64,000 nucleotides of DNA, from positions 4,972,501 through 5,036,500 of the forward strand of contig NZ_BQYI01000001.1 in NCBI RefSeq assembly GCF_027923405.1. The letters run 5' to 3'. Positions 50,873-64,000 of this stretch are shown here, one piece after another. The stretch's first letter is position 1, and the number at the start of each line of letters is the position of its first letter. Position numbers and translations under genes: made by a program. The stretch comes from Paenibacillus sp. YYML68 (lineage in GTDB: Bacteria; Bacillota; Bacilli; Paenibacillales; NBRC-103111). The notes below the pieces were generated by a model. It did no database searches and was not told the DNA's origin. It worked only from the letters and a program-made list of their open reading frames with translations.

Positions 50873-51562
50873 TCATCCGCTCAGCAGCCCGTACTTCCGC
50901 CTGAACCGCTCCAGAATACGCAGCCACGGCTTCGCGAACAGCGCGAGGAAGAACACGTTACTTGCAGCATGCGCCAGCTCGAACAGGAGGCTTGCGGCAT
51001 ACACCGCCGCCATCCCTTCCCAATGGCCCTCAGCCGCAAGTCCGGCAACCGTCCAGAAGTTCATGATCCAGCCGAACAGCATGCCCCATACGAAGCCGAA
51101 CAGCAGCAGCGCCCATCGGTTGCCCGACAGTCTGAAGGGTGTGCGGAGCGCACCCGCTGTCCACCCCATCATCCCCCAGGCGAACATCTGCCAAGGCGTC
51201 CACGGCCCTTGCCCGAGAAACATGTTCGAGATGAGCGCGGCGAACGCCCCGATCAGGAAGCCGCTCTCCGCGCCGAACACGAGCGCCGAGACGATAATGA
51301 CGAAGCTCGTCGGCTGCACGCTCGGCAGCGCGGCGAACGGCACGCGGCTGACCGCCGCGATCGCCGCCAGCAGCGCAATGAGCACCACCTCCCGCGCCTG
51401 CAGCTCGCGCAGCTCGAAGCGGATGAAGAACGGCGCCATCGCAGCGAGGATGAGTACGAAACTGATGAGCAAGTATTGATCACTCCCCACGGTCGAGATC
51501 AGCCCGAGTCCGAGCAGGAACACCATTATACAGACGACGAACGCTATACGAGCTCGAGACAT
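50873..51562 (-). CDS. ECF transporter S component, probably cobalamin-specific (CbrT-like)
   Basis: A 229-residue integral membrane protein with about six helices plus a short extra N-terminal pair. The central part has the ECF S-component pattern: AAIAAVSRVPFAALPSVQPTS, a Gly/Ala-rich helix pair, GPWTPWQMFAWGMMGW and a C-terminal Arg-rich end. It fits the family that includes the vitamin B12 S component CbrT. Cobalamin as ligand is inferred from the riboswitch at the head of this cluster and the transcobalamin-like proteins upstream. It overlaps the fused ATPase gene by 19 bp, so the two are translationally coupled. It binds the vitamin and docks on EcfT with the ATPases. Confidence 0.82.
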   Translation of the reverse strand: MSRARIAFVVCIMVFLLGLGLISTVGSDQYLLISFVLILAAMAPFFIRFELRELQAREVVLIALLAAIAAVSRVPFAALPSVQPTSFVIIVSALVFGAESGFLIGAFAALISNMFLGQGPWTPWQMFAWGMMGWTAGALRTPFRLSGNRWALLLFGFVWGMLFGWIMNFWTVAGLAAEGHWEGMAAVYAASLLFELAHAASNVFFLALFAKPWLRILERFRRKYGLLSG

Positions 51563-53448
51563 CGCTTCAGCACCTCCTCATACGTCACACCGTTGGGACA
51601 CAGGTCGCGGGCAGCACGATGAACCGCCGTCGTGTAGAAATGGTTGTCGCGGAAAAAATCGGCCGCCTCCTCCTGCGCCGCGATCTCACCATTGAACAGC
51701 ATCGCACACTCGATCGCATAAGACGCCGCAAATTCAATATCGTGCGTCACCATCACGATGGTGACTCCCTCTTGATTCAGCTCGGTCAGCAGCTGCCCCC
51801 ACGACTGCTTCTGCAGCGGGTCGATCCCCTTCGTCGGCTCGTCCAGCAGCAGCAGCCGCGGTCCGGATAGCAGCACACCAACAAGGGCGGCACGCTGCAG
51901 CTCGCCGCCGCTCAAGTCATGCGGGTGCCGCTCCAGCACGTGCCGCAGCTCGAACCGCTCGAGCAGCTCGTGCAGCCGCGATTCGCGGTTGTCAGCTGGC
52001 GAACGCTCCATCGCACGCTGCAGCTCAGCACCGACCGTGTCCTCGATGAAATACGCCATCGCATTTTGCGCCAAGTAGCCGATGGTCTTGTACTTCGCGT
52101 CCCCGCTCATGCGCCTCAGCGATTGCCCGCCGAGCCGTATGTCGCCAGCCGCAGGCTTCTCGAGTCCCGCCATCAGCCTCAGCAGCGTCGACTTCCCGGA
52201 GCCGTTCCCCCCGACAATGGCGAGGAACGTGCCTTCCGTCACCTGAAGGTCGAGCTGTCGCAGCACGGGCTGTCTGCGGTCCGCGTAGCTGAACGTCAGC
52301 TCGCGGCAGTCGAGCAGCGCTTGCTTGCGGGATGCTTGCTCCAGCTGGCGCGTGTGGGCTGCGGGCGAGGCATCGGGACGCGATAAGCTTGAGGCACGAC
52401 CTGCGTGGTCGGCACGTTCTGTATCAGTACGCGCCATACCCGTGGCACGACTTGCAACGTCGTCTGCAGGCCTTCTAGTGTTACGCGCCGAGTCTGCTGC
52501 AGTCGCTACGTCGGCCGGCTCAACAGGTGCCTCACACAGCGATTGCAGCCACTGCCGTCCCTCCCGCACACTTAACGGAATGTGCGCGTCCGCCGCTTCG
52601 TGCACCTCAGCAGCACCACCAGCAGCAGCCTCTGCGCCCATCCCGTGGAGCGAAGCCGCCCCCTGCTTCCGATGCTCCTGCACAGCCAGATACAATCGAG
52701 CGATACCCGGCATGTACGGCTCATACCGCTGTGAGCCTTCACGGTGAAGCTGTCCGATCCAGCTTCTCGGCGGACCAGCATACGTGATCGTGCCGTCCCT
52801 GCCCAGCACCACCAGCCGATCCGCCATCCCACTCAGCTCCTCCAGCCGATGCTCGGTCAGAATAATCGTCACACCGAGCTCCTCGTTCAGCCGACGGAGC
52901 ATTTGCAGGAAATCTTTGGACGCGACCGGATCGAGCTGAGCCGTCGGCTCATCCAGCAGCAGCACCTCCGGCTGCAGCAGTAACGCCGCGACCAGATTAA
53001 CCGTCTGCTTCTGTCCACCCGACAACGTATGGACCGATTGGTGCAGCCAGCTCTCCATTCCGAAGTAATGGACGAGCTCGGCAATACGGCGGCGCATCGC
53101 ATCCGCGGGCACGCCCATATTTTCAAGCCCAAAGGCAAGCTCCTGCAGCACTCGATCCATCACCAGCTGATTGTCCGGCTGCTGCTGCACGAGGCCGATG
53201 CGACAAGCGAGCTCCGCTGGCTCATGCTCGCCGAGCAGCTTGCCCCGGAAGCGAATCTCCCCCTCAAGCCGACCGACCGGCTGCAGCTCGGCCTTCAACA
53301 GACGGAGCAGCGTCGTCTTGCCGCAGCCCGACGGCCCGGCGAGCACAATGAGCTCACCTCGACGCACAGACAGATTCACGTGCCGCAGCACCGGCTCCGG
53401 CTGATCCGGGTACGTGAATTGAAGCTCATTTATCGCCAGCTGTTCCAT
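51544..53448 (-). CDS. fused duplicated ECF ATPase (EcfA-EcfA')
   Basis: A 634-residue protein from ATG 53448 (AAGGA six bases upstream; longer frames start inside the next gene). ATPase 1: Walker A GPSGCGKTT (about 36-44), LSGGQKQ, LLLDEPTAQLDP. ATPase 2: Walker A GGNGSGKST (about 412), LSGGELQ, LLLDEPTKGIDP. Both have the Q-loop (QQQPDN, AQN) and switch His (TEHRLEEL, THDIEF). A ~100-residue Ala/Arg/Asp-rich, probably disordered linker (about 285-385) joins them. ECF transporters normally use two separate subunits or a homodimer; the fusion fixes a 1:1 heterodimer. It overlaps EcfT by 19 bp and the S component by 19 bp, which shows one module. Confidence 0.92.
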   Translation of the reverse strand: MEQLAINELQFTYPDQPEPVLRHVNLSVRRGELIVLAGPSGCGKTTLLRLLKAELQPVGRLEGEIRFRGKLLGEHEPAELACRIGLVQQQPDNQLVMDRVLQELAFGLENMGVPADAMRRRIAELVHYFGMESWLHQSVHTLSGGQKQTVNLVAALLLQPEVLLLDEPTAQLDPVASKDFLQMLRRLNEELGVTIILTEHRLEELSGMADRLVVLGRDGTITYAGPPRSWIGQLHREGSQRYEPYMPGIARLYLAVQEHRKQGAASLHGMGAEAAAGGAAEVHEAADAHIPLSVREGRQWLQSLCEAPVEPADVATAADSARNTRRPADDVASRATGMARTDTERADHAGRASSLSRPDASPAAHTRQLEQASRKQALLDCRELTFSYADRRQPVLRQLDLQVTEGTFLAIVGGNGSGKSTLLRLMAGLEKPAAGDIRLGGQSLRRMSGDAKYKTIGYLAQNAMAYFIEDTVGAELQRAMERSPADNRESRLHELLERFELRHVLERHPHDLSGGELQRAALVGVLLSGPRLLLLDEPTKGIDPLQKQSWGQLLTELNQEGVTIVMVTHDIEFAASYAIECAMLFNGEIAAQEEAADFFRDNHFYTTAVHRAARDLCPNGVTYEEVLKRCLELV

Positions 53449-54311
53449 AGTCGATCCTTCCCCTCCATCCAGAGCGGCATCCCGATATACGTGATGAACG
53501 CAGCAAATGTACACCATTCCCATCCTCTCAACTGCCACGCCTCCATAGACGGATAGATCGTCAGCTGCCCATAGCCTGCGAGCAATCTTCCGGCCAGGCA
53601 AGTCACAAGCAGGAGCAGCAGCATCGTCAAAGCACGCCAATCCTTCGACCGCATCCGGTACGTGCGGTACGTGCTTCGCGTACGCATGCCGAAGCCTCGC
53701 GCCTTCATCGAGTCAGCCGTCTGCAGCGCATCCTCCAGCGACCAGGTGAGCAGAATCTGCAGCAGCTTCATGCCGTCGCTGGCTCTTTTGCGTAGCGGTC
53801 CCTCGGTAATGCCGATCCCCTTCGTCTGCTGCGTATGACTGATCGCCCGAAGCCTGTCCTTCAACAGAGGAACGAACCGCATCCCCATGACGACGACGAG
53901 CGAGCCCTTCGGCCAGATCGAGGCGAACAAGTAGAGGAACTTATCCGAGCTCATCACCTTGCTGTAGCTGAGGAAGACGAGCATGAGCGATAGCGTAGAC
54001 AGCCCTATCGTTAGTCCGAAGCATACCGCCTCGAGCGTAATCGGCTGCTCCCACATGTAGAACAGAATATGCTCCCCGCGATGGGAGAACAGCGGATTGA
54101 GCACGAACAGCACGACGCCGAGCGCCAGCAGCGGACCGACCGTTCGCAACAGACTCGTGAATGCAGCCAGACGATAGCCGACCGCAACGAGCAGCAGCGC
54201 GGAGGCGGTCAGGAATACCGGATGAAGGAGCAGCATCGACAGCAGCATCACCCCTGTGAAGTAGATGAAGCTCGGCAGCGGATGCAGCGCACGGAAGCCG
54301 GAGTGGTGCAT
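53430..54311 (-). CDS. ECF transporter transmembrane subunit (EcfT)
   Basis: A 293-residue membrane protein with about five to six helices and the long cytoplasmic coupling helices of EcfT between residues 130 and 215. The coupling motif ADSMKARGFG (about 199-208) carries the Ala-Arg-Gly signature that binds the ATPases; an earlier AISHTQQTKGIG forms the other coupling site. The ATG overlaps the stop of the upstream lipoprotein gene by one base. With the fused ATPase and S component downstream it makes a complete dedicated (group I-like) ECF transporter. Confidence 0.92.
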   Translation of the reverse strand: MHHSGFRALHPLPSFIYFTGVMLLSMLLLHPVFLTASALLLVAVGYRLAAFTSLLRTVGPLLALGVVLFVLNPLFSHRGEHILFYMWEQPITLEAVCFGLTIGLSTLSLMLVFLSYSKVMSSDKFLYLFASIWPKGSLVVVMGMRFVPLLKDRLRAISHTQQTKGIGITEGPLRKRASDGMKLLQILLTWSLEDALQTADSMKARGFGMRTRSTYRTYRMRSKDWRALTMLLLLLVTCLAGRLLAGYGQLTIYPSMEAWQLRGWEWCTFAAFITYIGMPLWMEGKDRLWNSWR

Positions 54312-55321
54312 TACGGGTCACCCGCCTCATCGGTCTTGCCGACGTCCTTACCAAGGTCGACCGTATACAGCCACTCGATCCGATCGCCTTGGGCGAGCTT
54401 ATAGGCGCCTGCGCTCATCTTCGGGAATTGACCATTCACCCTATACAGCCAGCCGCTCTTCGCCCCACGGTCCAGCTCATACAGATTCGCGATTCCCTCG
54501 ACGTAGACGGATCTACCGCTTCCCCGCGTCTCCATCTGAATCTTATTCTGCTTCGTCACCCGCCGCAGCACGTCGATCACCGTATCTCCATCCTTCACCT
54601 CAACGGCCGTCACCGGCAGTATCGTCCCCTTCTTCGCGTCACCGTGAATCTCGATGCTCACCCCGGCGCTCGCGACGGATGATGGAGCCCCTGCAGCCGC
54701 CGACTCGTGATTCGATCCGCTCGCATTCGCCTGCGCCGCGGACTCACCCGAGGCTGTCGCAGGCGGGGACGGACTACCTGAAGCTGCGCCGTCCGCTGAC
54801 GGTGAACCAGCGGCTGCAGCTTGGCTAGCTGTAGCCTCGGCTTGCGACGCATGGGGAGCCTGCGAGCCGCCTTGCTTCGCGGCATCACCGCTGGCCCCGC
54901 CGCTTACCGACGACTGGCCCTCTGACGGAGCAGCCCCTCCGCTCTGAGACGGCTGCACGCTCGATGTCTGCTCCCCCGAAGGCTGTGACTGCTGTACACC
55001 GGAGGTCTGCGCAGCTGACCCTTGCCCAGCAGCGTCCTCGGCATTCGCAGATCCGCCTGCTTGCCCTGAATGCGACACTGCACCCGGTCTATCGCTCGCT
55101 GCAGCGCTTCCTTGCTGCCTCGCTCCAGCGCCCTTTGCATCCGAGCCTTGCGACGCCGCCCCTTTCCCGGTCGTCTGCCCATCTTCGCCTGTCGCGCCGA
55201 GTCCACTAGCCCCCGTCGCCGGACCGGACGCCGAAGAACACGCCGACAGCAGCATGAACAGAAGCAGCCCCATCGCTGCGAGCAGCCTACGTGCCCCCCC
55301 GTTCCTCCAGATCGACATCAC
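54311..55321 (-). CDS. DUF4430 lipoprotein with long disordered stalk
   Basis: A 336-residue exported lipoprotein with lipobox LLSAC (Cys28). Residues about 29-215 are almost entirely Ala, Ser, Gly and Gln, a flexible stalk. The C-terminal ~110 residues form one DUF4430 domain (GVSIEIHGDAKKG, DTVIDVLRRV, SGRSVYVEGIANLYEL, AKSGWLYRVNGQFP, LAQGDRIEWLYT), the fold of the C-terminal beta domain of transcobalamin and intrinsic factor. It closely matches the third DUF4430 domain of the SLH protein upstream. A tethered vitamin B12 receptor that passes ligand to the ECF transporter is proposed from this and from the riboswitch. It overlaps EcfT by one base. Confidence 0.85.
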   Translation of the reverse strand: MMSIWRNGGARRLLAAMGLLLFMLLSACSSASGPATGASGLGATGEDGQTTGKGAASQGSDAKGAGARQQGSAAASDRPGAVSHSGQAGGSANAEDAAGQGSAAQTSGVQQSQPSGEQTSSVQPSQSGGAAPSEGQSSVSGGASGDAAKQGGSQAPHASQAEATASQAAAAGSPSADGAASGSPSPPATASGESAAQANASGSNHESAAAGAPSSVASAGVSIEIHGDAKKGTILPVTAVEVKDGDTVIDVLRRVTKQNKIQMETRGSGRSVYVEGIANLYELDRGAKSGWLYRVNGQFPKMSAGAYKLAQGDRIEWLYTVDLGKDVGKTDEAGDP

Positions 55322-55341
55322 CTCATCCCCCTTCTTCTATT

Positions 55342-55378
55342 AAAAATAACACGAAGAGCACTGCACCAGTGCCCTTCG
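55342..55378 (-). terminator. terminator between the surface protein and the ECF genes
   Basis: Minus-strand stem CGAAG-G-GCACTG / CAGTGC-T-CTTCG, 3-base loop, then TGTTATTTTTAA. It should lower transporter expression relative to the surface protein; no separate promoter fits in the remaining ~20 bases. Confidence 0.8.
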
Positions 55379-55393
55379 CCTTCAATCGCTAGC

Positions 55394-58300
55394 CTATGAT
55401 GCTCTCTGCTTCTCCAGAACGCGCACCGCAACAGCAGCCGCCATCTCGCGCGTTACCGCCGCTTGCGGCAAAAACCGATTACGGTCATCGCCCTCCATGT
55501 AACCGCTCGCCTGTACCGCTTGAATCGCGGCGAGCGAACTGGCATTCGCATCCGCTATATCCAAGAACGGTGCGAGGTTCGCTGCGGACAAGGACGTCAG
55601 CCCGTAGGCACGGGCGAGCATAATGGCCATCTCTTCCCTCGTTACTTGACGGTCAGGAGCGAAGCGGCGCTCATCCATCCCCTCGATGAAGCCTTGACGG
55701 TGAGCCTCTGCGACGAGAGGCGCGTACCAGCTGCCAGGCTCCACATCGTCGAACTTCGTCGCCTGACCAGCTGCCACCGGCTGGATTCCCTTCAGCCGAA
55801 GCACGATCGCCACGAACTGCGCTCGTGTCAACGACTGCTGTGGCGCGAAGCGCTGCCCATCCATACCGTTCATAAGCCCGTGCTTCACAGCCTTCTGCAC
55901 GTACCCAGCCGCCCACGGCGAGATGCTCGACGCGTCCGTGAATGCTGCTGACAGCGTGACCTGCTCGCGAGCCGCATAGGTCGCCAGCGCCAGCAATGCC
56001 TGCTCGGTCGCGATGTCGCTCGACGGCTCACCCTTCAAGTGCGCGAAGCCGCCGTCCGCCTGCTGATACGTCAGCAGATGGCTCAGCACCGAGCCGCCTG
56101 CCTTCACGAACCGCTCGTCTTCAGCCGAGATGCCGAGCGAGGACAACGCCAGCACCACCTGAGCCGAGCTCTCGCTTGGCACAGTTCCCTCGAGGCCGAA
56201 GCCGCCATCGGCACGCTGCTGCGTGGAGAGCCAGCCGAGCGCTCGGTCGACAGCCGCCTTCACACCCGGCTTCGATACATGAGGCGCGAGGGAGGTGAGC
56301 GCCATTGCCGTTATATCAATGGAGGAGGAGTCCCCTTCGGCAAGCGGCCAGCCGCCATCTCGGTGCTGGCGCTCCAGCAGCCAGCTCAGTAGCTTCTCCC
56401 GCGTCCACAGGCTGCTCGTCTCCACCTCGTGGCCGACTTCATTCAGCACTGTCAAGGCGAAGATCGGGCCATTCGTGCCTTGCAGCGTCATCTGCTGATG
56501 ATTCACGATCGCATCGATCAGATCGTAGCCCGCGATGTCACGCGGATTACCGCCAGCAGCGTGCACGCCCAGTGCAATCCGCTCATAATCGGTCACGAGC
56601 CGCAGACGCCCTTCCTTCTCCTGCAGCAGCGACTCTACACCTGCGACATAAGCAGCTGGCACCTGCTCGCCTGCCACGGCGAGGCCGTAGGCCTCCCAGT
56701 CAGTCAAGCCGTCCTCCTGCTGCCGCACGTAGCGTACGACCGCCGCAAGCGCCTTGCCCACTTCCTCGGACAGCTTGTTCGTGTCCGCTGTCTTCAGCTT
56801 TGTTTTATCAATAACCGCGAACTTCGTGAAGTGATTCACCGCTCCCGTCACAATACCGGTCTCGGCATCCAGCACAGCAGGAATCGGAACCCATTGTCCC
56901 GTAGACTCGTTCAGCCACACTAGCGCGAGCTGATCGAGCGTCTTCCCGTATAACGGCGCCTTGATCGCGACGTATACCGGCTTCTCGAAGGTCGTGCCGT
57001 CCGGACCGAGCTCGAAGATCGAGGAAAGCACCTCTGGTCTGGAGGCACCTGCCTCCTCCTTGTGAACGGTAAGCGTCGTGTCCTCCTTCAAGGCGCTCGC
57101 CGGAACGATAAGCTGCACCTCTTCCTGTGAATCGATAATAGCAGCCGCCTCGCTGCTCTTGACAGTCTTCTGCAGCTGCACCTCGTTCGAACGGGCCAGC
57201 TGCAGCAGACGGTCGGCCGTCTCCTTCGTCATCGCCTTATCGCCGTTCTTCACGACGACCGTCGCCACCTTCGCGCTCACTGGCGTCTGATGATCGTAGC
57301 GAATGGTCAGCTTCTTCAGCTCTTCATCGAGCTTGGCCGCCGTATCTGCAATATTGACGCCGACGACTGGACCGCTACTCCCTCCACCGGACGAGCAGCC
57401 CGGCAGCTCTGTCGCCTTCACATCATCGCCGCCGTTAACTGTATATTTCCAGTACACGCGATCTCCCTGTGACAACGCGTAGCTGCTGGCACTGTTGGAT
57501 GGATACGAGCAATTGACGGCATACAGCCATCCGCTCTTCGGCCCGTGTGCGAATTCGTTCAAGCCGTCGATCCCGCTCACATACAAGCTTGAGCCGCTGC
57601 CAATCGAGACGACACGGTCAGCGCCCAGCGCCCGCACGAGCACCGAATACGCGGTATCTCCACTTTGCCATGGCGTGCTGCTCGCAGATAATATCGATCC
57701 GCGGGCCGCACCGCCATCCACACTGACAGAGACCGATGGAGCTTGCTCGCCTGAGCCCGAGCCTGTTACGACGTTCGGCGCAACATTCAATTGAGCGCTC
57801 CAGCGGGCGATGAGCGGTGCATCGTGCTCCCGATAACCTGAGATAACGAGCTCGTGCATCCCGGCAGGCAAGCCGCTGAAGGCCGCTATGCCATACGTAT
57901 CAGTCGTCACGGTCGTCTGCCCGATGCGAACCTGAATGCCAGCTGCCTTGGAAGTACCCTGCCAGCTCGCTTGCTCCACCTGAATAGTGAAGCCTTGACC
58001 CGCCTTCGGCACACTCGGAGTGAGCGCATATTGGTGCACGATCTGCGTATCCATGCCGCTGTAGTAGATGAGCACCTCATCGCCACGCTGCAAGGCTGTA
58101 TCCTTCCAGCCTCCTGTAGACGCCCACACACCGGCACGCTTCACGGCGAAGCCCCACCAGTGGAAGCCCGATGCCTCGATGCCATTCACCGAGCTTATGC
58201 CGAAGTACATACCGTCCGTATAAACATGCTCCGTTACCGTATGCTGCAGCGCCTCGTACACGCTCGAAGCACGTTCTTGCTTCGCGACCAACGACCCAGC

Positions 58301-59920
58301 AGGCCCCTCTACGCGCACCTGCACGAGAGATGGCAGCTCCTGCACGCCGCGCACAACAGAAGGGAAGCCGTTCACGAGCGCCCCTGTTACCTCGATGCGC
58401 TCATCTGTCGCCTCATAGCCGCCCGGGAAGTAGGCGATGCCCGCAGCATCCGTCCATACCGTCTGTCCACCGACCTTCACATACACCGCAGCCGGAACAG
58501 ATTGCATGCCGTCTAGCTGCGTCACCTTCACCTGGAACGGCTCCTTGTTCCTCGGCACCTTCGGCTCCAGCTCGATCTTGTCGAGCAGGGCGGAGCCTAA
58601 GTACGGACCGAACATCACCGCCAGCTCATCGCCCGGCTGCAGCTGCGTCGACTTCCAATCCCAGTCTCCGGTCCACGTGCCGTTGCGCTTAATATTGAAG
58701 CCCCAATAATGATAATTGCCGTGGCTAGTGTTCTTCGCCTTGCCGCCAATTGCATACACATCGAAGAACGGCGAATCCATTGTCACGACTGGAAGACTAT
58801 GTCTCGCCGCCAGCTGCTGCAGCGCCTCAAGCGGCGTGCGTGCCGACTCGAAGCCTTCCGCCATCGTCCCTTCACTCGTCTCCACATGAATGAACACGCT
58901 CGCCTTGCCGTTCGTGCTGCCTGTGTAGACCGGCACCGTATACGTGCCGCTCAAGCCGCCTGTCAGCGTATCGTATGCGACCAGGGCGAGCAGCGACTGG
59001 TACGTCGAGAACTTGTCCGAAGCTCCCCCCGCCTGATAGGAAAAGCCTCCATCTCCCGTTGAATAATGCATCAGCGCGGAGATCAAGCTCCCCTCCGGCT
59101 TCGCGAAGCTGCCCTGCCGTCCGTCCTTCTGCTGCTTCGACAGACCGAGCACGGCCATCGCAAGACTGTTGCTGTTGGTGCGGTTTACAGTTAGGTCGCC
59201 GTTATCCAGTTGCCTAGTGGCTAGCCAAGACACCGCCTCCTGAACTACGACTGCTACGTCGGCCCGATCCTTGTACGGGGCGAGCGCCCAGAGCGCTGCA
59301 GCCGTAATATCAATCTGAGCCGTCGTATCGCTCTCATTCAACGCCCAGCCTTGATCCTTAATATGGCGCTGAACGAGCCACCCGACCAGCTTGTCCTTCG
59401 TCCAGACAGCATCGGTCGGAATCGTGTAGCTGCCGCTATCGAGCGCCAGCAAGCCGTAGATGACACCGTTCGCCCCTTGGGCAGCTAGGTCCGTACGATT
59501 GTAGATTGGCTCCAGCAGATTGCGCCCTGCGAACGATTGCGGATCGCCTCCAGCCGCCTTCACACCGAGCGTCAGCTTAGCGTACTCAGTCGGCAGCGTG
59601 GCGCCCGTGAACGACTGCACCCGCTCCTTCGCCGCATCCAGGTAGCCGCTCTCTATTGTCTTGCCCGCCTGACCGAGCGTATAGGCGTACCAGTCATCTG
59701 TCACGGGTCCCTGATTCACGAGCCAAGCCGACGCCTCCTCGATCAGCTGGACAATCGTTACGGTACGTGTCACCTTCGTCGGCTGTGATCCGACTGCTGA
59801 ATCCTCATTCGCTGCCTGTGCGAGCTGCGCAGGCTGCAGCCCACTCGCGAGCTGCGCCAGCAGGAGCATCGCAACCACGAGCCTGATCAACTGCTGCTGC
59901 AGCCTTGACCTCATCTTCAT
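55394..59920 (-). CDS. 1508-aa SLH-anchored transcobalamin-like surface protein
   Basis: ATG at 59920 lies nine bases after GGAGGG. Signal peptide 1-36 (cut after AQA). Domains: alpha/alpha-toroid of the prenyltransferase/squalene-cyclase type (about 50-320; repeats LVGWLVQRHIKDQGW, IDITAAALWALAPY, VSWLATRQLDNG); DUF4430-like domains 1 and 2 with Ig-like inserts (about 339-530 and 532-710; NYHYWGFNIKRNG, FHWWGFAVKRAG); DUF4430 domain 3 (about 729-840; KSGWLYAVN); a ZU5-like beta domain (about 855-1040); a second toroid (about 1044-1325; LLSWLLERQHRDGGWPL, WLSTQQRADGGFG); three SLH domains (about 1329-1508). Human intrinsic factor and transcobalamin consist of exactly one such toroid plus one DUF4430-type domain with B12 held between them. 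A cobalamin riboswitch controls this gene. A wall-bound cobalamin trap is the best reading. Confidence 0.85.
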   Translation of the reverse strand: MKMRSRLQQQLIRLVVAMLLLAQLASGLQPAQLAQAANEDSAVGSQPTKVTRTVTIVQLIEEASAWLVNQGPVTDDWYAYTLGQAGKTIESGYLDAAKERVQSFTGATLPTEYAKLTLGVKAAGGDPQSFAGRNLLEPIYNRTDLAAQGANGVIYGLLALDSGSYTIPTDAVWTKDKLVGWLVQRHIKDQGWALNESDTTAQIDITAAALWALAPYKDRADVAVVVQEAVSWLATRQLDNGDLTVNRTNSNSLAMAVLGLSKQQKDGRQGSFAKPEGSLISALMHYSTGDGGFSYQAGGASDKFSTYQSLLALVAYDTLTGGLSGTYTVPVYTGSTNGKASVFIHVETSEGTMAEGFESARTPLEALQQLAARHSLPVVTMDSPFFDVYAIGGKAKNTSHGNYHYWGFNIKRNGTWTGDWDWKSTQLQPGDELAVMFGPYLGSALLDKIELEPKVPRNKEPFQVKVTQLDGMQSVPAAVYVKVGGQTVWTDAAGIAYFPGGYEATDERIEVTGALVNGFPSVVRGVQELPSLVQVRVEGPAGSLVAKQERASSVYEALQHTVTEHVYTDGMYFGISSVNGIEASGFHWWGFAVKRAGVWASTGGWKDTALQRGDEVLIYYSGMDTQIVHQYALTPSVPKAGQGFTIQVEQASWQGTSKAAGIQVRIGQTTVTTDTYGIAAFSGLPAGMHELVISGYREHDAPLIARWSAQLNVAPNVVTGSGSGEQAPSVSVSVDGGAARGSILSASSTPWQSGDTAYSVLVRALGADRVVSIGSGSSLYVSGIDGLNEFAHGPKSGWLYAVNCSYPSNSASSYALSQGDRVYWKYTVNGGDDVKATELPGCSSGGGSSGPVVGVNIADTAAKLDEELKKLTIRYDHQTPVSAKVATVVVKNGDKAMTKETADRLLQLARSNEVQLQKTVKSSEAAAIIDSQEEVQLIVPASALKEDTTLTVHKEEAGASRPEVLSSIFELGPDGTTFEKPVYVAIKAPLYGKTLDQLALVWLNESTGQWVPIPAVLDAETGIVTGAVNHFTKFAVIDKTKLKTADTNKLSEEVGKALAAVVRYVRQQEDGLTDWEAYGLAVAGEQVPAAYVAGVESLLQEKEGRLRLVTDYERIALGVHAAGGNPRDIAGYDLIDAIVNHQQMTLQGTNGPIFALTVLNEVGHEVETSSLWTREKLLSWLLERQHRDGGWPLAEGDSSSIDITAMALTSLAPHVSKPGVKAAVDRALGWLSTQQRADGGFGLEGTVPSESSAQVVLALSSLGISAEDERFVKAGGSVLSHLLTYQQADGGFAHLKGEPSSDIATEQALLALATYAAREQVTLSAAFTDASSISPWAAGYVQKAVKHGLMNGMDGQRFAPQQSLTRAQFVAIVLRLKGIQPVAAGQATKFDDVEPGSWYAPLVAEAHRQGFIEGMDERRFAPDRQVTREEMAIMLARAYGLTSLSAANLAPFLDIADANASSLAAIQAVQASGYMEGDDRNRFLPQAAVTREMAAAVAVRVLEKQRAS

Positions 59921-60014
59921 GCTTCTCATCCCTCCACTTTCTTCACATGGCTCTGGGGCCATTCCCCTCACCTGTGTTCAGCTTCCTCGCGACAGCCTCC
60001 AACAGGCCGCATAA

Positions 60015-60041
60015 CGAAAAGCACCTTCCGCCAGAAGGTGC
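60015..60041 (-). terminator. expression-platform terminator of the riboswitch
   Basis: Minus-strand stem GCACCTTC / GAAGGTGC, 5-base loop, then TTTTCGTT. It lies 120 bases after the aptamer and 95 bases before the start codon, as expected for B12-induced premature termination. Confidence 0.8.
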
Positions 60042-60159
60042 CGCAACATAAGCAGATATGTACGAAGGCAAACGTATGTGCGTCAAACCAGCCATAACGG
60101 CGCATGCGTGCAGCGCTTGCCCACCGTCTCCCTATATCGCGTAGGTTGCTTGGCGTATC

Positions 60160-60328
60160 GGACAGGCAGGTCTCCTGGCTTGCGAATCGTTGCAATCTCC
60201 ACGCCTTCCCGTTTCGAATGAAACAGTGGCTCATGTGGAGAAGCTCCTCGCTCACAGTGGCGCGACCGCGCCGGTCTTACACCGGCTTCCCTATTAACGA
60301 ATCGGTAGATTCGAACCTGTCTTCACTA
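60160..60328 (-). promoter_or_regulatory. cobalamin (B12) riboswitch
   Basis: Minus strand shows the conserved aptamer parts in order: GGGAAGCCGGTG, the CGCCACTGTG core, GAGCCACTG, GGGAAGGCG, and the 3' B12 box AGCCAGGAGACCTGCC (60178-60163). The 5' ACAGGT near 60312-60320 can pair with the 3' end as P1. It sits about 240 bases upstream of the transcobalamin-like gene and is followed by an intrinsic terminator, so cobalamin should switch the cluster off. Confidence 0.95.
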
Positions 60329-60466: not shown

Positions 60467-61009
60467 CTAAGACGACGGCTGCACCTGCCGCAGCAATCGA
60501 ACAATATCGTCTGTCCGGGTCAGCTCACCGTCCAGCCGCTTCACGAGCCTGCCCTCCGCGTCGATCAGGAACGCTGCCGGCAAGCCGAGTACGCCGAAGC
60601 GGTCTACGGCCTCGCCGCTCGGGTCCAGACCGATCGGGAAACTCAGATCGTGCTTGACCGCGAACTGCGCGACACTCCCTCTCGATTCTCCTACATTCAC
60701 GGCAATCACCTCGACGCCCTGCACCCCAGCCTGATACGCCTCGTTCATGAGCGGCATCTCCCTCTCGCAAGGCTCACACCACGTCGCCCAGAACAAGAGC
60801 AGCACTCCCTTGCCCCGATAATCGGACAGCTTCAGCTCGCTGACGCCTTCAAGACGCGCCAAGGCAAAGTCAGGCGCGGGCTGACCGATCCGCACCTTGT
60901 CTGCCGCATTCCCCTCGGTTCCGGACTGCAGCAGCGTATAGACGAGCGCCGCGCCAATAAGCAAGACGAGCACCGCCATGACGCCCTGTCTCCAGACTAC
61001 AGCAGCCAT
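60467..61009 (-). CDS. membrane-anchored TlpA/ResA-type thiol-disulfide oxidoreductase
   Basis: A 180-residue thioredoxin-fold protein with an N-terminal signal anchor (about 8-28, VMAVLVLLIGAALVYTLL) and the fold outside the membrane. The active site is WCEPC (Cys78, Cys81), preceded by PAPDFAL and followed by the cis-Pro LGLPAAFLID. ResA/TlpA proteins reduce extracytoplasmic disulfides in apocytochromes or copper-site cysteines. It is 3 bp downstream of the nosF-like gene, so a role in keeping copper ligands of nitrous oxide reductase or its chaperones reduced is likely. Confidence 0.9.
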   Translation of the reverse strand: MAAVVWRQGVMAVLVLLIGAALVYTLLQSGTEGNAADKVRIGQPAPDFALARLEGVSELKLSDYRGKGVLLLFWATWCEPCEREMPLMNEAYQAGVQGVEVIAVNVGESRGSVAQFAVKHDLSFPIGLDPSGEAVDRFGVLGLPAAFLIDAEGRLVKRLDGELTRTDDIVRLLRQVQPSS

Positions 61010-61012
61010 CGG

Positions 61013-61795
61013 CTATTCGCCCCCCTTGCCGGAGGAGCCCCGAGCATGTCCACCACCGCTCCCGGTCATCGGCTGACGGTACAGCTCCGCGAAAGCCGTC
61101 TCGAGACCGCGAGCGTCCATTGACGCTGCATCGCCCCCGAGTACATCGGTGCGGTCCTGCCTGACCAGTCTTCCCCCCTGCAGGAAGACGGCTTCATCTG
61201 CAGCCAGCTCCGCCACGCGCAGCTGGTGCGTCGAGAAGAGGATCGCATGCCCCTCCTGCTTGGACTGGCGCACCAGCTCGACGAACGCATCCATCCAGTA
61301 CGGATCAAGGCCGTTGGTCGGCTCGTCCATGACGAGCAGCGGAGGCTTGGCCAGCAGCGCCTGCGCGAACAGCAAGCGCTGACGCATCCCCTTCGAGAAC
61401 GAGGTGACCGCCTTGTGCTTCACCTCACTTAAGCCGACGAGCTCGAGCAGCTCTGCCACCCGCTTCTTCGGCACCTTGCGCAGCGCCGCCCAGAACGACA
61501 GCGTCTCGTGAGCTGACAAGCCTTGACCGAACAAGTAATCGTCAGGCATGTATCCGAGCTGGTCGGCATAGCGAGCGCGATTCGCACCCCACTGCAGACC
61601 GTTCAGCTCAATCGTACCGCTCGTCGGCTGCAGCATCCCAGTGATGAGCCGCAGCAGCGTGCTCTTCCCGGCGCCGTTACCACCGCACAACGCAAGGACA
61701 CGTCCGCGCGACAGCGACAGGTCAATCGATTCCAGAACGGCTCGACCGCCCAGCTCCTTGCGGACACCCTTAAGTACGAGAACTGGCTTATCCAC
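61013..61795 (-). CDS. nosF: ABC transporter ATPase, NosF-like
   Basis: A 260-residue ATPase: Walker A GGNGAGKST (residues 38-46), Q-loop region LGYMPDDYL, signature FSKGMRQ (in place of LSGGQ, as is usual in NosF and CcmA), Walker B LLVMDEPTNGLDP, switch FSTHQL. A Gly/Ser/His tail of ~20 residues ends it. It overlaps the permease gene upstream by 8 bp. NosF with NosY and NosD supplies an ABC function for assembling the CuZ [4Cu:2S] centre of nitrous oxide reductase. The symbol rests on gene order D-L-Y-F. Confidence 0.87.
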   Translation of the reverse strand: MDKPVLVLKGVRKELGGRAVLESIDLSLSRGRVLALCGGNGAGKSTLLRLITGMLQPTSGTIELNGLQWGANRARYADQLGYMPDDYLFGQGLSAHETLSFWAALRKVPKKRVAELLELVGLSEVKHKAVTSFSKGMRQRLLFAQALLAKPPLLVMDEPTNGLDPYWMDAFVELVRQSKQEGHAILFSTHQLRVAELAADEAVFLQGGRLVRQDRTDVLGGDAASMDARGLETAFAELYRQPMTGSGGGHARGSSGKGGE

Positions 61796-62606
61796 GTGAA
61801 CGCCCCCTTTCCCAAACCAAGCTCGCGAAGCCTACAGCTAATACGATCCATGATAGACAGACAGCGAGGAAGAACCAGCCGCCGCTTGGCCGCTCCATCC
61901 AGCCGACCCACTTGTAGTATTCAGGTCCGAGCACAGCCCCTCCTCCGAGCTTAACGACGACGAACAAGCGGACGAGCTCAGCCGGATTCAGGAACGTCAA
62001 CGTCACAAGCGCCGGCTTGATGTACAGATAAGGAACGATACCCAATACCGCGATCAGTAGCGTCGGCCAACCGACCACAAGGAAGAACCACACCGCAACA
62101 CCAATCGTCAACGCCTGCCACCGATTGCGAGCGTACGTGCCGATGCCGATCGCAATGGCTAGGAATAGAACGATAAGTCCTGTCGAGAAGGCAATAAACA
62201 GTCCGAACGTACGTACGTCAAGCCCGCTGCCTGCGAGCGCTCCAACAATACCGGACACGCCGTAGCCGAAGGTCACGATCGTGAGCAGCACAACGGTCAG
62301 CCCGATATACTTGCCCCACAGGAAGGCCGCCGTAGACAACGGATACGTCGACAGCAGCTGCCAGCTCCCCTCTTCCTTCTCCGCTGTCAGGGAGAAGGAG
62401 CCGAGCAGCAGCGTCATGAGCGGCAGCAAGTACAGAATGAGACTGAGCATCGAGGCGGTCGAGCTGGAATATCCTTGCATGAAGCTTTGAGCGTTAATGA
62501 GCAGCAGGGATAGGCTGAAGAGCGTGAAGAGCGCCATGAACGAATACGCCCATGGATTGCGCAGACCGAGCTTCACCTCTCTGTGCGCGATATGAAGGAC
62601 GTTCAT
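61788..62606 (-). CDS. nosY: ABC-2-type permease, NosY-like
   Basis: A 272-residue membrane protein with six predicted helices. It starts VLHIAHREVKLGLRNPWAYSF, the typical NosY opening, followed by a Ser-rich extracytoplasmic loop (QSFMQGYSSSTASM), SLTAEKEEGSWQLLSTYPLS in the first cytoplasmic loop, and FLNPAELVRLFVVVKLGG. It pairs with the NosF-like ATPase (8-bp overlap) and starts within the stop of nosL (4-bp ATGA overlap). NosFY act with NosD in sulfur/copper delivery to NosZ. Confidence 0.88.
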   Translation of the reverse strand: MNVLHIAHREVKLGLRNPWAYSFMALFTLFSLSLLLINAQSFMQGYSSSTASMLSLILYLLPLMTLLLGSFSLTAEKEEGSWQLLSTYPLSTAAFLWGKYIGLTVVLLTIVTFGYGVSGIVGALAGSGLDVRTFGLFIAFSTGLIVLFLAIAIGIGTYARNRWQALTIGVAVWFFLVVGWPTLLIAVLGIVPYLYIKPALVTLTFLNPAELVRLFVVVKLGGGAVLGPEYYKWVGWMERPSGGWFFLAVCLSWIVLAVGFASLVWERGRSRG

Positions 62607-63130
62607 TGACCGTGCTTAGCTGGAGCCGCGCCGGATTCCGAGTGACTATGTCCGTGACTGCCGCCCATCCCCTTGCCGCGCTCCCACGTATGCCCGGACA
62701 GCTCCGCCGCGCTCATCAGCATGCCCTTCTTCTGACTGTCGATGAACGACTGCGCCTCCGTCTTGTCCTTGAACGAGTAGATGCCGTACGCCATCGGAGA
62801 CTTGAACGATACGTCGAACGCATACGTCGCCTCGTCGAACTTGATCCATTCCTTCGTGTTATAGTCCCGAACGAATTGCGCAGCGATCTGATCGGTGCCG
62901 TTCTCCTTCTTCCACTCGTTCATGCAGCCGATGTCATCGAACTTGTACGTCTTCCCTTCCTTCGTCGTCAGCTGCACAGCGAATGCATCGTCCTTCACCT
63001 GCATGTTGCAGATGACACACTTATCCGTCGCCTCATTAATCGCCTGCGCCGTATATTCCTTTTGACCACAACCTGCCATTACCACGAGCATCACAATTAC
63101 TGCCAGTATCCATGAGAATTTGGTTTTCAT
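62603..63130 (-). CDS. nosL: copper chaperone lipoprotein NosL
   Basis: A 175-residue lipoprotein; ATG at 63130 follows AGGAGG by nine bases, and the upstream in-frame ATG at 63196 is inside nosD. The lipobox is VMAGC (Cys21). The NosL copper-binding signature CVICNM (Cys38, Cys41, Met43) is present, with FDDIGCMNEW further on. The C-terminus is His/Met-rich (GKGMGGSHGHSHSESG), which would add copper ligands. NosL delivers Cu(I) to apo-NosZ or NosD. It overlaps nosD by 4 bp (ATGA) and nosY by 4 bp. Confidence 0.93.
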   Translation of the reverse strand: MKTKFSWILAVIVMLVVMAGCGQKEYTAQAINEATDKCVICNMQVKDDAFAVQLTTKEGKTYKFDDIGCMNEWKKENGTDQIAAQFVRDYNTKEWIKFDEATYAFDVSFKSPMAYGIYSFKDKTEAQSFIDSQKKGMLMSAAELSGHTWERGKGMGGSHGHSHSESGAAPAKHGQ

Positions 63131-64000
63131 TGTCGTTGTCCTCCTGCATATCGAATTAGTAGAAGGGAGAGCACCAGCATCGCCAGTGACCCCCATAGCA
63201 CTCCCGTAGCTCCAGCAGCAGCCTGCCCCTGTTCACGATCTACGTTGCGGGAATCAGGGCGCATCCGCGGCGCTGTATCCTTCGTCCATTCCTCCAGTCC
63301 AGCACGGTTTAAGCTTTCCATAAACTGCATGCCCGGCGATTGGAAGAACAGCTGGTACGCCGGAATCGCAGTCGTCAGCCGCTGGAAGAACGGATTGATC
63401 ACATAAGCGGTGTCGCTCGTTCCGTCTCGGTCAACATCGATGCCCCGGAACGCCTCCCAGTAGTTGCCCTGGAACGTGTTGTCGCGGCTATCGCTCGCCT
63501 CTGCCTCGATGACATTGCCCATGAACTGGTTGCCTGTAAATTGATTACCCTCCGACTCCAGAAACTGCACGCCAATGAAGTTCCGTATGACCTCATTGTC
63601 CGTAAACACATTACGGTTCGACTGCTCCACATACAAGCCGACACGGTTGCCCTCCGCCTTATTGCCATGAATACGCGACGTATGTACGTCGAAAAACAGC
63701 AGCCCCTGCGAATTAACACTCTCACTCTGCTTGACGAACGTATTGCTCTCCACCACCGCGTCATGAACCCCCATGACCATCGCTCCAGTCACGTTGTAAG
63801 CGCCTTGATTGCCGCTGATGACTGTGCCATCTGTGTACATACAGTGGATGCCATATCGGGAATGCTCTATCTGATTTCCTTCTATTATATTGTTGTGACT
63901 GCTCTCCAGGTAAATGCCGTCGTTCATCTGGCTGATCGCATTATTCAATATTCGACTATCATGCACCTCGAACAGATCGATACCATTGCCACGCTCGGAC
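63127..64000 (-). CDS. nosD: NosD-like beta-helix protein, N-terminus beyond window
   Basis: The frame is open to the right edge, so about the first third is missing (a full NosD has roughly 420 residues; 291 are seen). It consists of right-handed parallel beta-helix rungs with Asn ladders (SHNNIIEGNQIEHSRYGIH, YTDGTVISGNQGAYNV, EQSNRNVFTDNEVIRNFIGV), then a C-terminal extension with a single transmembrane helix (GVLWGSLAMLVLSLLLIRY). NosD is the extracytoplasmic scaffold for copper-sulfur centre assembly on nitrous oxide reductase. The C-terminal anchor suits a Gram-positive. nosZ should lie to the right. Confidence 0.88.
   Translation of the reverse strand, partial: SERGNGIDLFEVHDSRILNNAISQMNDGIYLESSHNNIIEGNQIEHSRYGIHCMYTDGTVISGNQGAYNVTGAMVMGVHDAVVESNTFVKQSESVNSQGLLFFDVHTSRIHGNKAEGNRVGLYVEQSNRNVFTDNEVIRNFIGVQFLESEGNQFTGNQFMGNVIEAEASDSRDNTFQGNYWEAFRGIDVDRDGTSDTAYVINPFFQRLTTAIPAYQLFFQSPGMQFMESLNRAGLEEWTKDTAPRMRPDSRNVDREQGQAAAGATGVLWGSLAMLVLSLLLIRYAGGQRQ

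Follow-up and report, generated by a model that had tools for sequence, protein, structure and literature searches.

A riboswitch-headed operon of Paenibacillus sp. YYML68 with toroid, DUF4430 and ECF transporter genes, a probable system for cobalamin capture and uptake

Results

An operon with toroid, DUF4430 and transporter genes behind a cobalamin riboswitch

The window analysed here, a 64-kb stretch of the genome of Paenibacillus sp. YYML68 (contig NZ_BQYI01000001.1, positions 4,972,501 to 5,036,500), contains an operon in which a cobalamin riboswitch aptamer and a hairpin are followed, in this order, by genes for a large surface protein, a lipoprotein, and the T, fused A-A' and S components of an energy-coupling factor (ECF) transporter. 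The whole operon is on the minus strand, coordinates are positions in the window, and start codons were picked by ribosome-binding site or overlap. A role of this operon in B12 uptake is well supported. Very probably, it is a system for the capture and uptake of cobalamin, or of corrinoids more broadly, in which the wall protein would bind the ligand, the lipoprotein hand it over and the ECF transporter import it. The first-pass annotation, made from the sequence alone, had described a riboswitch, a wall protein with two toroids and three DUF4430-type domains, a stalked lipoprotein and a complete ECF transporter; Rfam, Pfam, profile searches and the predicted fold confirmed all of these.

The aptamer (RF00174, 60148..60334) scored 124.6 bits in cmscan (E 7.8e-31), compared to a gathering score of 31.5. 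The match spans the whole model (positions 1-189 of 189), and is the only one reaching the Rfam gathering threshold in the 64 kb. It is followed by an intrinsic-terminator-like hairpin (60020..60042, a 10-pair stem and a T tract), the presumed expression platform of the riboswitch. Within this leader, 1 such hairpin was found versus 0.7 in shuffles of the same stretch, with a fold z of -3.06. Of 49 leaders, from 48 loci and the window, 45 had a comparable hairpin after the riboswitch; five shuffles, preserving two-base blocks only, gave 20-27 of 49. As far as can be read from sequence, the hairpin would be a transcriptional OFF switch. Two riboswitches were seen ahead of the operon in a few places: as a tandem in L089 (1591-2305) and in G132:C1 (353438-354663), and some 5 kb apart in L101 (at 323 and 5616).

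Domains and predicted fold of the surface protein

The surface gene (55394..59920) encodes 1508 aa, counted from an ATG at 59920 with GGAGGG lying 9 nt ahead of it. An alternative GTG start at 59971 would give a longer frame of 1525 aa, whose numbering is used for the Pfam and Foldseek residues below. The frame, Pfam, profiles of relatives and the predicted fold give the following order: a signal-peptide-like N-terminus (by eye), toroid 1 (58973..59698), DUF4430-type beta-grasp domain a (58604..58897), an immunoglobulin-like module, DUF4430-type beta-grasp domain b (58052..58324), a second immunoglobulin-like module, DUF4430 domain c (57419..57703), a ZU5-like domain (56963..57154), toroid 2 (55976..56704) and three SLH domains (55430..55942). 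The immunoglobulin-like modules were read from predicted strands only. Pfam recognised the C-terminal toroid (PF00432, best stretch 1172-1333), domain c, which is the canonical DUF4430 (PF14478, 52.9 bits, 771-844), and the SLH domains (PF00395, 1.4e-31, three stretches). The ZU5 match (PF00791, 940-1003) is barely above cut-off, at 21.2 bits for a cut-off of 21, and the predicted model of this region matches ankyrin-B ZU5 structures.

No Pfam DUF4430 match was obtained for domains a and b in the window protein, and toroid 1 was covered by no best Pfam stretch. These three were placed by profiles of relatives, at 92-333 for the toroid (profile TOR, 5.9e-82) and at 359-456 and 550-640 for the DUF4430-type domains; the profiles are partly circular, because they were seeded from the window protein, and all three regions are also backed by the predicted fold, that of toroid 1 being confident. 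Domain a is linked to PF14478 through its homologues, as 14 of the 19 alignment members match this family at E<=0.01, the window's own member not being among the 14. In profile-profile comparisons (hhalign), domains a and b aligned together at 1.2e-44, which is what ties b to the family, and domain c was nearest to the DUF4430 domain of the lipoprotein, at 2e-45, while a or b versus c or the lipoprotein gave 4e-7 to 2e-9. The domains named by the first-pass annotation are therefore all present, but its list had to be amended: a ZU5-like module precedes toroid 2, and the DUF4430 set consists of one canonical and two divergent domains. Similarly, wall anchoring holds through the SLH domains, whose attachment is non-covalent, and does not involve sortase.

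The N-terminal half was modelled with AlphaFold2 (AF2), unliganded and from 19 aligned sequences, with a mean predicted local distance difference test (pLDDT) of 85.9 and a predicted TM-score (pTM) of 0.49. Residues 59-762 were compared to the PDB with Foldseek. In the ranking, which holds the best 50 of 1007 rows, ranks 1-15 were all transcobalamin, intrinsic factor or haptocorrin, with E from 7.6e-9 to 4.6e-7, and rank 16 came at 2.5e-6. The alignments extend over 426-456 columns, for targets of 378-414 residues. Since these columns span both domains, the toroid and the beta-grasp domain that follows it were matched as a unit. Cobalamin binding by this protein, and the number of sites that it would offer, are what we infer from such a domain set. 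VIA-align gave no transcobalamin or intrinsic factor among the 50 entries listed for either half-model; these lists were filled by single toroids, so that they are no evidence for an absence of such relatives.

Toroids of this kind might also be enzymes, either terpene cyclases or glycan-active proteins, in which case the link to the riboswitch would be incidental. Indeed, squalene-hopene cyclases and drimenyl diphosphate synthase are among the best single-toroid matches of VIA-align and among the Pfam and PDB-sequence matches. Class II terpene cyclases have a DxDD acid motif, which was nevertheless found in only 1 of 112 toroids; the two toroids of the window, which are outside these 112, do not have it at the corresponding site, as judged by eye. 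The motif scan was for DxDD only. Given this missing motif and the riboswitch and CbrT-like context, the terpene cyclase reading was rejected, and we regard an enzymatic role of the toroids as very improbable.

Part of toroid 2 (56315-55988, minus strand) also matched the NCBIfam family SCO2321_fam, at 56 bits, far under its cut-off of 300. The family is named after a membrane protein, SCO being the tag of Streptomyces coelicolor genes, and might be a distant actinobacterial counterpart.

The lipoprotein and the ECF transporter

The lipoprotein gene (54311..55318) encodes 335 aa from an ATG at 55318, with a lipobox LSAC, a stalk of 190 residues, 121 of which are A, S or G, and a C-terminal DUF4430 domain (PF14478, 1.1e-18). 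Next come the T component, of the CbiQ family (53430..54311; PF02361, 8.2e-9), the A and A' ATPases fused into one protein of 634 aa with two Walker A and two LSGG motifs (51544..53448; TIGR04520, 342 bits), and the S component (50873..51562; PF07155/PF12822). A profile of 22 S components matched PDB entry 6fnp at 1e-22, the next matches being 4hzu (0.0017) and FolT (0.01). Entry 6FNP is ECF-CbrT of Lactobacillus delbrueckii, a transporter of cobalamin and cobinamide (PMC5997447). The proposal that the ECF genes encode a B12-type transporter is thus upheld by the sequence of a CbrT-like S component.

Because the T component belongs to the CbiQ family, import of cobalt has to be considered for this module. 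The S component is CbrT-like, however, and the genome has a CbiM-CbiQ-ATPase operon elsewhere, behind a riboswitch of its own. The cobalt-uptake reading was rejected on these two grounds, and we give it hardly any credit.

Coupled overlaps had been noted along the operon. From the coordinates, they exist between the lipoprotein and T genes (1 nt), the T and A genes (19 nt) and the A and S genes (19 nt), but not at the junction of the surface and lipoprotein genes, where a terminator-like hairpin (55351..55379, a 13-pair stem and a T tract) separates the two, so that coupling at that junction is not tight. The scan that gave this hairpin returned 6 sites versus 4.9 expected, a count that is not significant. 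If it is a partial terminator, it could raise the dose of surface protein above that of the transporter.

In other loci, the double ATPase continues at its C-terminus into the CbrT-like S component. Such A-A'-S fusions were seen in L091, L105, L108, L110, L111, L116, L117, L120, L122, L124, L126 and L134, and as frames of about 830 aa in G034, G046 and G053. They contrast with the proposal that S components leave the ECF module during the transport cycle (PMC12075633).

Riboswitch linkage and co-occurrence across genomes

Among 23 wide loci surrounding homologues of the surface gene in related genomes, RF00174 was directly upstream, on the same strand, in 20. Two of the misses (L044 and L045) were negative even at E<=10, and the third (L050) has only 2 nt of contig ahead of its open frame. 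A second set of at least 79 loci was obtained with one toroid peptide pattern, and comprises Bacilli, Clostridia-type genomes and metagenome-assembled genomes, two Coriobacteriales and one Propionibacteriaceae; the two sets overlap (L043 and L063, for example, are on the same contig, judging by its length), and their counts are not independent. In the 1.33 Mb of the 79 listed loci, riboswitch model R1 gave 54 matches at E<=0.1, with 54 out of 54 on the gene strand, a count that favours riboswitches like those of this and related genomes, since R1 was built from them. A riboswitch was at the head of the gene run, that is, ending -400 to 1500 nt before its first gene, in 48 of 66 listed loci, the 13 with less than 600 nt of upstream sequence having been dropped from the 79; in L083 and L099 a riboswitch lies inside the run. 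When seven loci without a match were rescanned with Rfam's own model, only L104 gained one, 435 nt before an upstream giant gene.

An even draw of 61 genomes from the phylum, including that of the window, yielded 21 genomes with PF14478, in 27 clusters. With Rfam's model, RF00174 was found upstream, on the same strand and within 6 kb, for 21 of the 27 clusters, although not all first-look riboswitch candidates were scored, and a CbrT-like S gene was within 10 kb of 16. The window's own cluster counts in both. Homologues of the surface protein thus lie mostly inside B12 regulons, in keeping with the first-pass annotation.

The order of genes is recurrent as well. Of the 79 listed loci, 22 whose sequence runs on for less than 7 kb past the toroid gene were dropped. 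In the other 57, a DUF4430-only protein was present in 50, T in 42, A-A' in 45 and S in 42, and the full set was found within 12 kb of the toroid gene in 42. Co-occurrence was then scored across the family, in 104 genomes from 22 genera: 34 have the S component (E<=1e-20), 35 have DUF4430, 34 have both, none has S only, and 69 have neither (Fisher 1.2e-26, the genomes not being independent). The lone genome with DUF4430 only, G005, is 70% complete, and its surface-gene contig ends inside the T gene.

These counts bear on the idea that the surface protein is not obligatory for import, and rather stores or hoards B12 or denies it to competitors, the lipoprotein and ECF transporter sufficing for uptake. 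In its favour, toroid and DUF4430 numbers vary widely, the hairpin that follows the surface gene might favour surface protein over transporter in amount, and L056, L057 and L071 have a riboswitch-controlled surface gene without a full ECF set adjoining it; L056 is on the same contig as L074, and L057 on the same contig as L102, and in both genomes an S gene is present elsewhere, on a different contig. The joint presence of DUF4430 and S in all but one of the 35 carriers, and the shared operon being the commoner situation, point the other way, and we consider hoarding rather unlikely.

Variation in domain architecture

The 111 toroid-protein sequences have 1-3 toroids and 0-6 DUF4430 domains; some of them are partial or belong to both locus sets. 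Among the 54 listed loci that could be scored, 36 have at least one chain with both a toroid and a DUF4430 domain, and in 18 the two were seen only on separate chains of a single gene run. For this count, 24 of the 79 loci were not scorable and the frame-broken L070 was dropped, and the search may have overlooked divergent DUF4430 domains in longer chains. Six separate-chain loci are firm (L091, L096, L099, L106, L108 and L113), since their toroid proteins, of only 316-354 aa, are too small for both domains; L106 has no ECF genes adjoining. Two others, L114 and L123, are doubtful, because the contig stops within a neighbouring DUF4430-SLH gene.

The presence of toroid and DUF4430 on different chains suggests that a clamp, if it exists, can form between proteins, and the lipoprotein would be the natural partner, carrying the ligand to the membrane. 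We therefore put forward, tentatively and with clearly less confidence than the uptake role itself, a relay with a clamp in trans: the wall toroids would hold the corrinoid, and the lipoprotein beta-grasp domain would close on a toroid, take the ligand and dock it on the CbrT-like S component. This relay fits the 18 separate-chain loci.

Two further observations concern gene structure. Three Clostridia-type loci, L103, L104 and L124, encode a giant surface protein (about 2000-3000 aa, incomplete in L124, where the contig ends) in which toroid, DUF4430-type and SLH domains are combined; its gene precedes that of a 511-542 aa toroid-SLH protein. In L055 and L070, most operon genes are split into several frames, possibly due to an error-prone assembly.

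B12 metabolism of the host

The window genome has three other cobalamin riboswitches, at G000:C1 1421056, 1464179 and 2765130. The first precedes a cbi biosynthesis operon (CbiX, CbiC, CbiD, CbiG, methylases and a CbiA-type protein), the second a BtuFCD-like importer with CobT, CobU, CbiB and CobS, and the third CbiM-CbiQ-ATPase. A B12-type methionine synthase domain is also present. At the level of the family, CbiD was found in 59 of the 104 genomes, with a depletion in DUF4430 carriers (11 of 35, the window genome being one of the 11) compared to the others (48 of 69; Fisher 3e-4, uncorrected for phylogeny), as expected if carriers scavenge the finished vitamin.

The same machinery might instead serve mainly for cobinamide, other cobamides or a corrinoid precursor, complementing the cell's own biosynthesis and BtuFCD-like systems. 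Cobinamide or foreign cobamides are a possible ligand for a surface-based system, given the cbi and cob operons and the importer of this genome, the 11 carriers that kept CbiD, and the ability of CbrT to carry cobinamide too (PMC5997447). The depletion of CbiD among carriers argues for cobalamin, and we find a main ligand other than cobalamin improbable, on a par with hoarding.

Neighbouring genes

Directly upstream of the operon (60467-63966, minus strand) is a cluster that resembles nitrous-oxide-reductase accessory genes, with a ResA-like thioredoxin, an ATP-binding cassette exporter, and NosL-like and NosD-like proteins. The ResA and NosD family matches are below the curated cut-offs, and the small NosL-like protein was recognised by eye, without an NCBIfam match.

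Discussion

Taken together, these features suggest the following course of events. At low cobalamin, the riboswitch would let transcription through its terminator, as the aptamer and hairpin indicate. The wall protein, held by its SLH domains, would then clamp cobalamin, with a toroid on one side and a DUF4430-type beta-grasp domain on the other, if fold and domain order are a guide. From there the DUF4430 lipoprotein, with its long flexible stalk, may take the ligand and present it to the CbrT-like S component, a step to which the recurrent gene order and co-occurrence point, and the T and A-A' module, by its family, would power import.

Several observations weigh against this reading. The clamp orientation was not reproduced in the AF2 N-terminal model, where superposition on the animal proteins gave a root-mean-square deviation of 10-12 A and TM-scores, normalised to target length, of 0.37-0.47. 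Together with the pTM, these values show a domain placement unlike that of the animal proteins with bound B12; of the likeness to the intrinsic factor family predicted at first, the toroid and beta-grasp folds hold, and their mutual orientation differs in the model. As the model had no ligand and 19 sequences, its orientation neither favours nor counters a clamp. Neither domain a nor the lipoprotein domain, searched as profiles, retrieved any transcobalamin or intrinsic factor among PDB sequences at E<=10, and the C-terminal half (DUF4430-c, ZU5 and toroid 2) is nearer to terpene cyclases and prenyltransferases, transcobalamin first appearing at rank 18 in Foldseek. In the listed loci, 18 of 66 are without a riboswitch at the head of the run (2 of these have one inside it), and 15 of 57 are without the full gene set beside the toroid gene. 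Finally, the genome's own cbi and cob genes, CbiM-CbiQ-ATPase and BtuFCD-like importer speak against pure scavenging, and raise the question of what another uptake system would be for.

ECF transporters are known to bind their substrate through the membrane S component alone. If capture and uptake by this operon is true, it would provide an ECF transporter with extracellular capture proteins, and with the relay, one that has a substrate-delivery lipoprotein. DUF4430 would gain a function, and many Gram-positive bacteria would catch B12 with the two-domain device of animals, coupled to an ECF transporter. This would back the Gram-positive origin of the animal B12 carriers that was proposed in 2007 (PMC1796856), and add a B12 uptake route in gut and soil communities; identifying such transport systems in gut genomes is described as an open problem in PMC6593275.

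Comparison with known systems

Animal transcobalamin and intrinsic factor have one toroid and one beta domain, and serve receptor-mediated uptake. The present protein shares with them and with haptocorrin the order of a toroid and then a beta-grasp domain, but is wall-anchored, has several copies of each domain and would feed an ECF importer, and its model did not reproduce the clamp geometry. Compared to ECF-CbrT of L. delbrueckii, the S components are homologous (1e-22), whereas the ECF module with which CbrT works is identical to the one serving FolT2, and the present operon has dedicated T, A-A' and S genes together with surface and lipoprotein genes; cbrT lies in the cluster nrdJ-cbrS-cbrT-pduO, and the text of that report contains neither the word riboswitch nor the word lipoprotein (PMC5997447). 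A Bacteroides surface lipoprotein likewise captures B12 at the cell surface, but in a Gram-negative system (PMC6143338).

The closest precedent is the work of Burroughs et al. 2007, which predicted that bacterial surface proteins with a toroid and an SLBB domain bind or scavenge B12, in operons with CbiO and CbiQ neighbours and a second paralogous SLBB protein (PMC1796856). The toroid-SLBB fusion, surface location, CbiO-like ATPase with CbiQ-like protein, and second SLBB protein are common to both. Two toroids, three beta domains, SLH domains, a CbrT-like S component, a riboswitch with its hairpin and host biosynthesis genes distinguish the present case. By these last genes the window genome departs from the tendency reported there, that hosts usually lack key B12 biosynthesis genes, while its family follows it. 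The text of that paper has 0 occurrences of "riboswitch" and leaves the S component unnamed in the section on these operons. The claim of the first-pass annotation that a bacterial relay of this design is new was therefore too strong, its essentials except riboswitch control having been predicted in 2007. Among the matches listed in the open-licence PMC literature, no riboswitch-controlled toroid/DUF4430 B12 system and no later experimental test were found, and older surveys may list some of these operons. What is new here is the linkage to the riboswitch and the CbrT-like S component, the near-perfect co-occurrence, the multi-toroid S-layer form, and the operons in which toroid and beta domain are apparently on separate chains.

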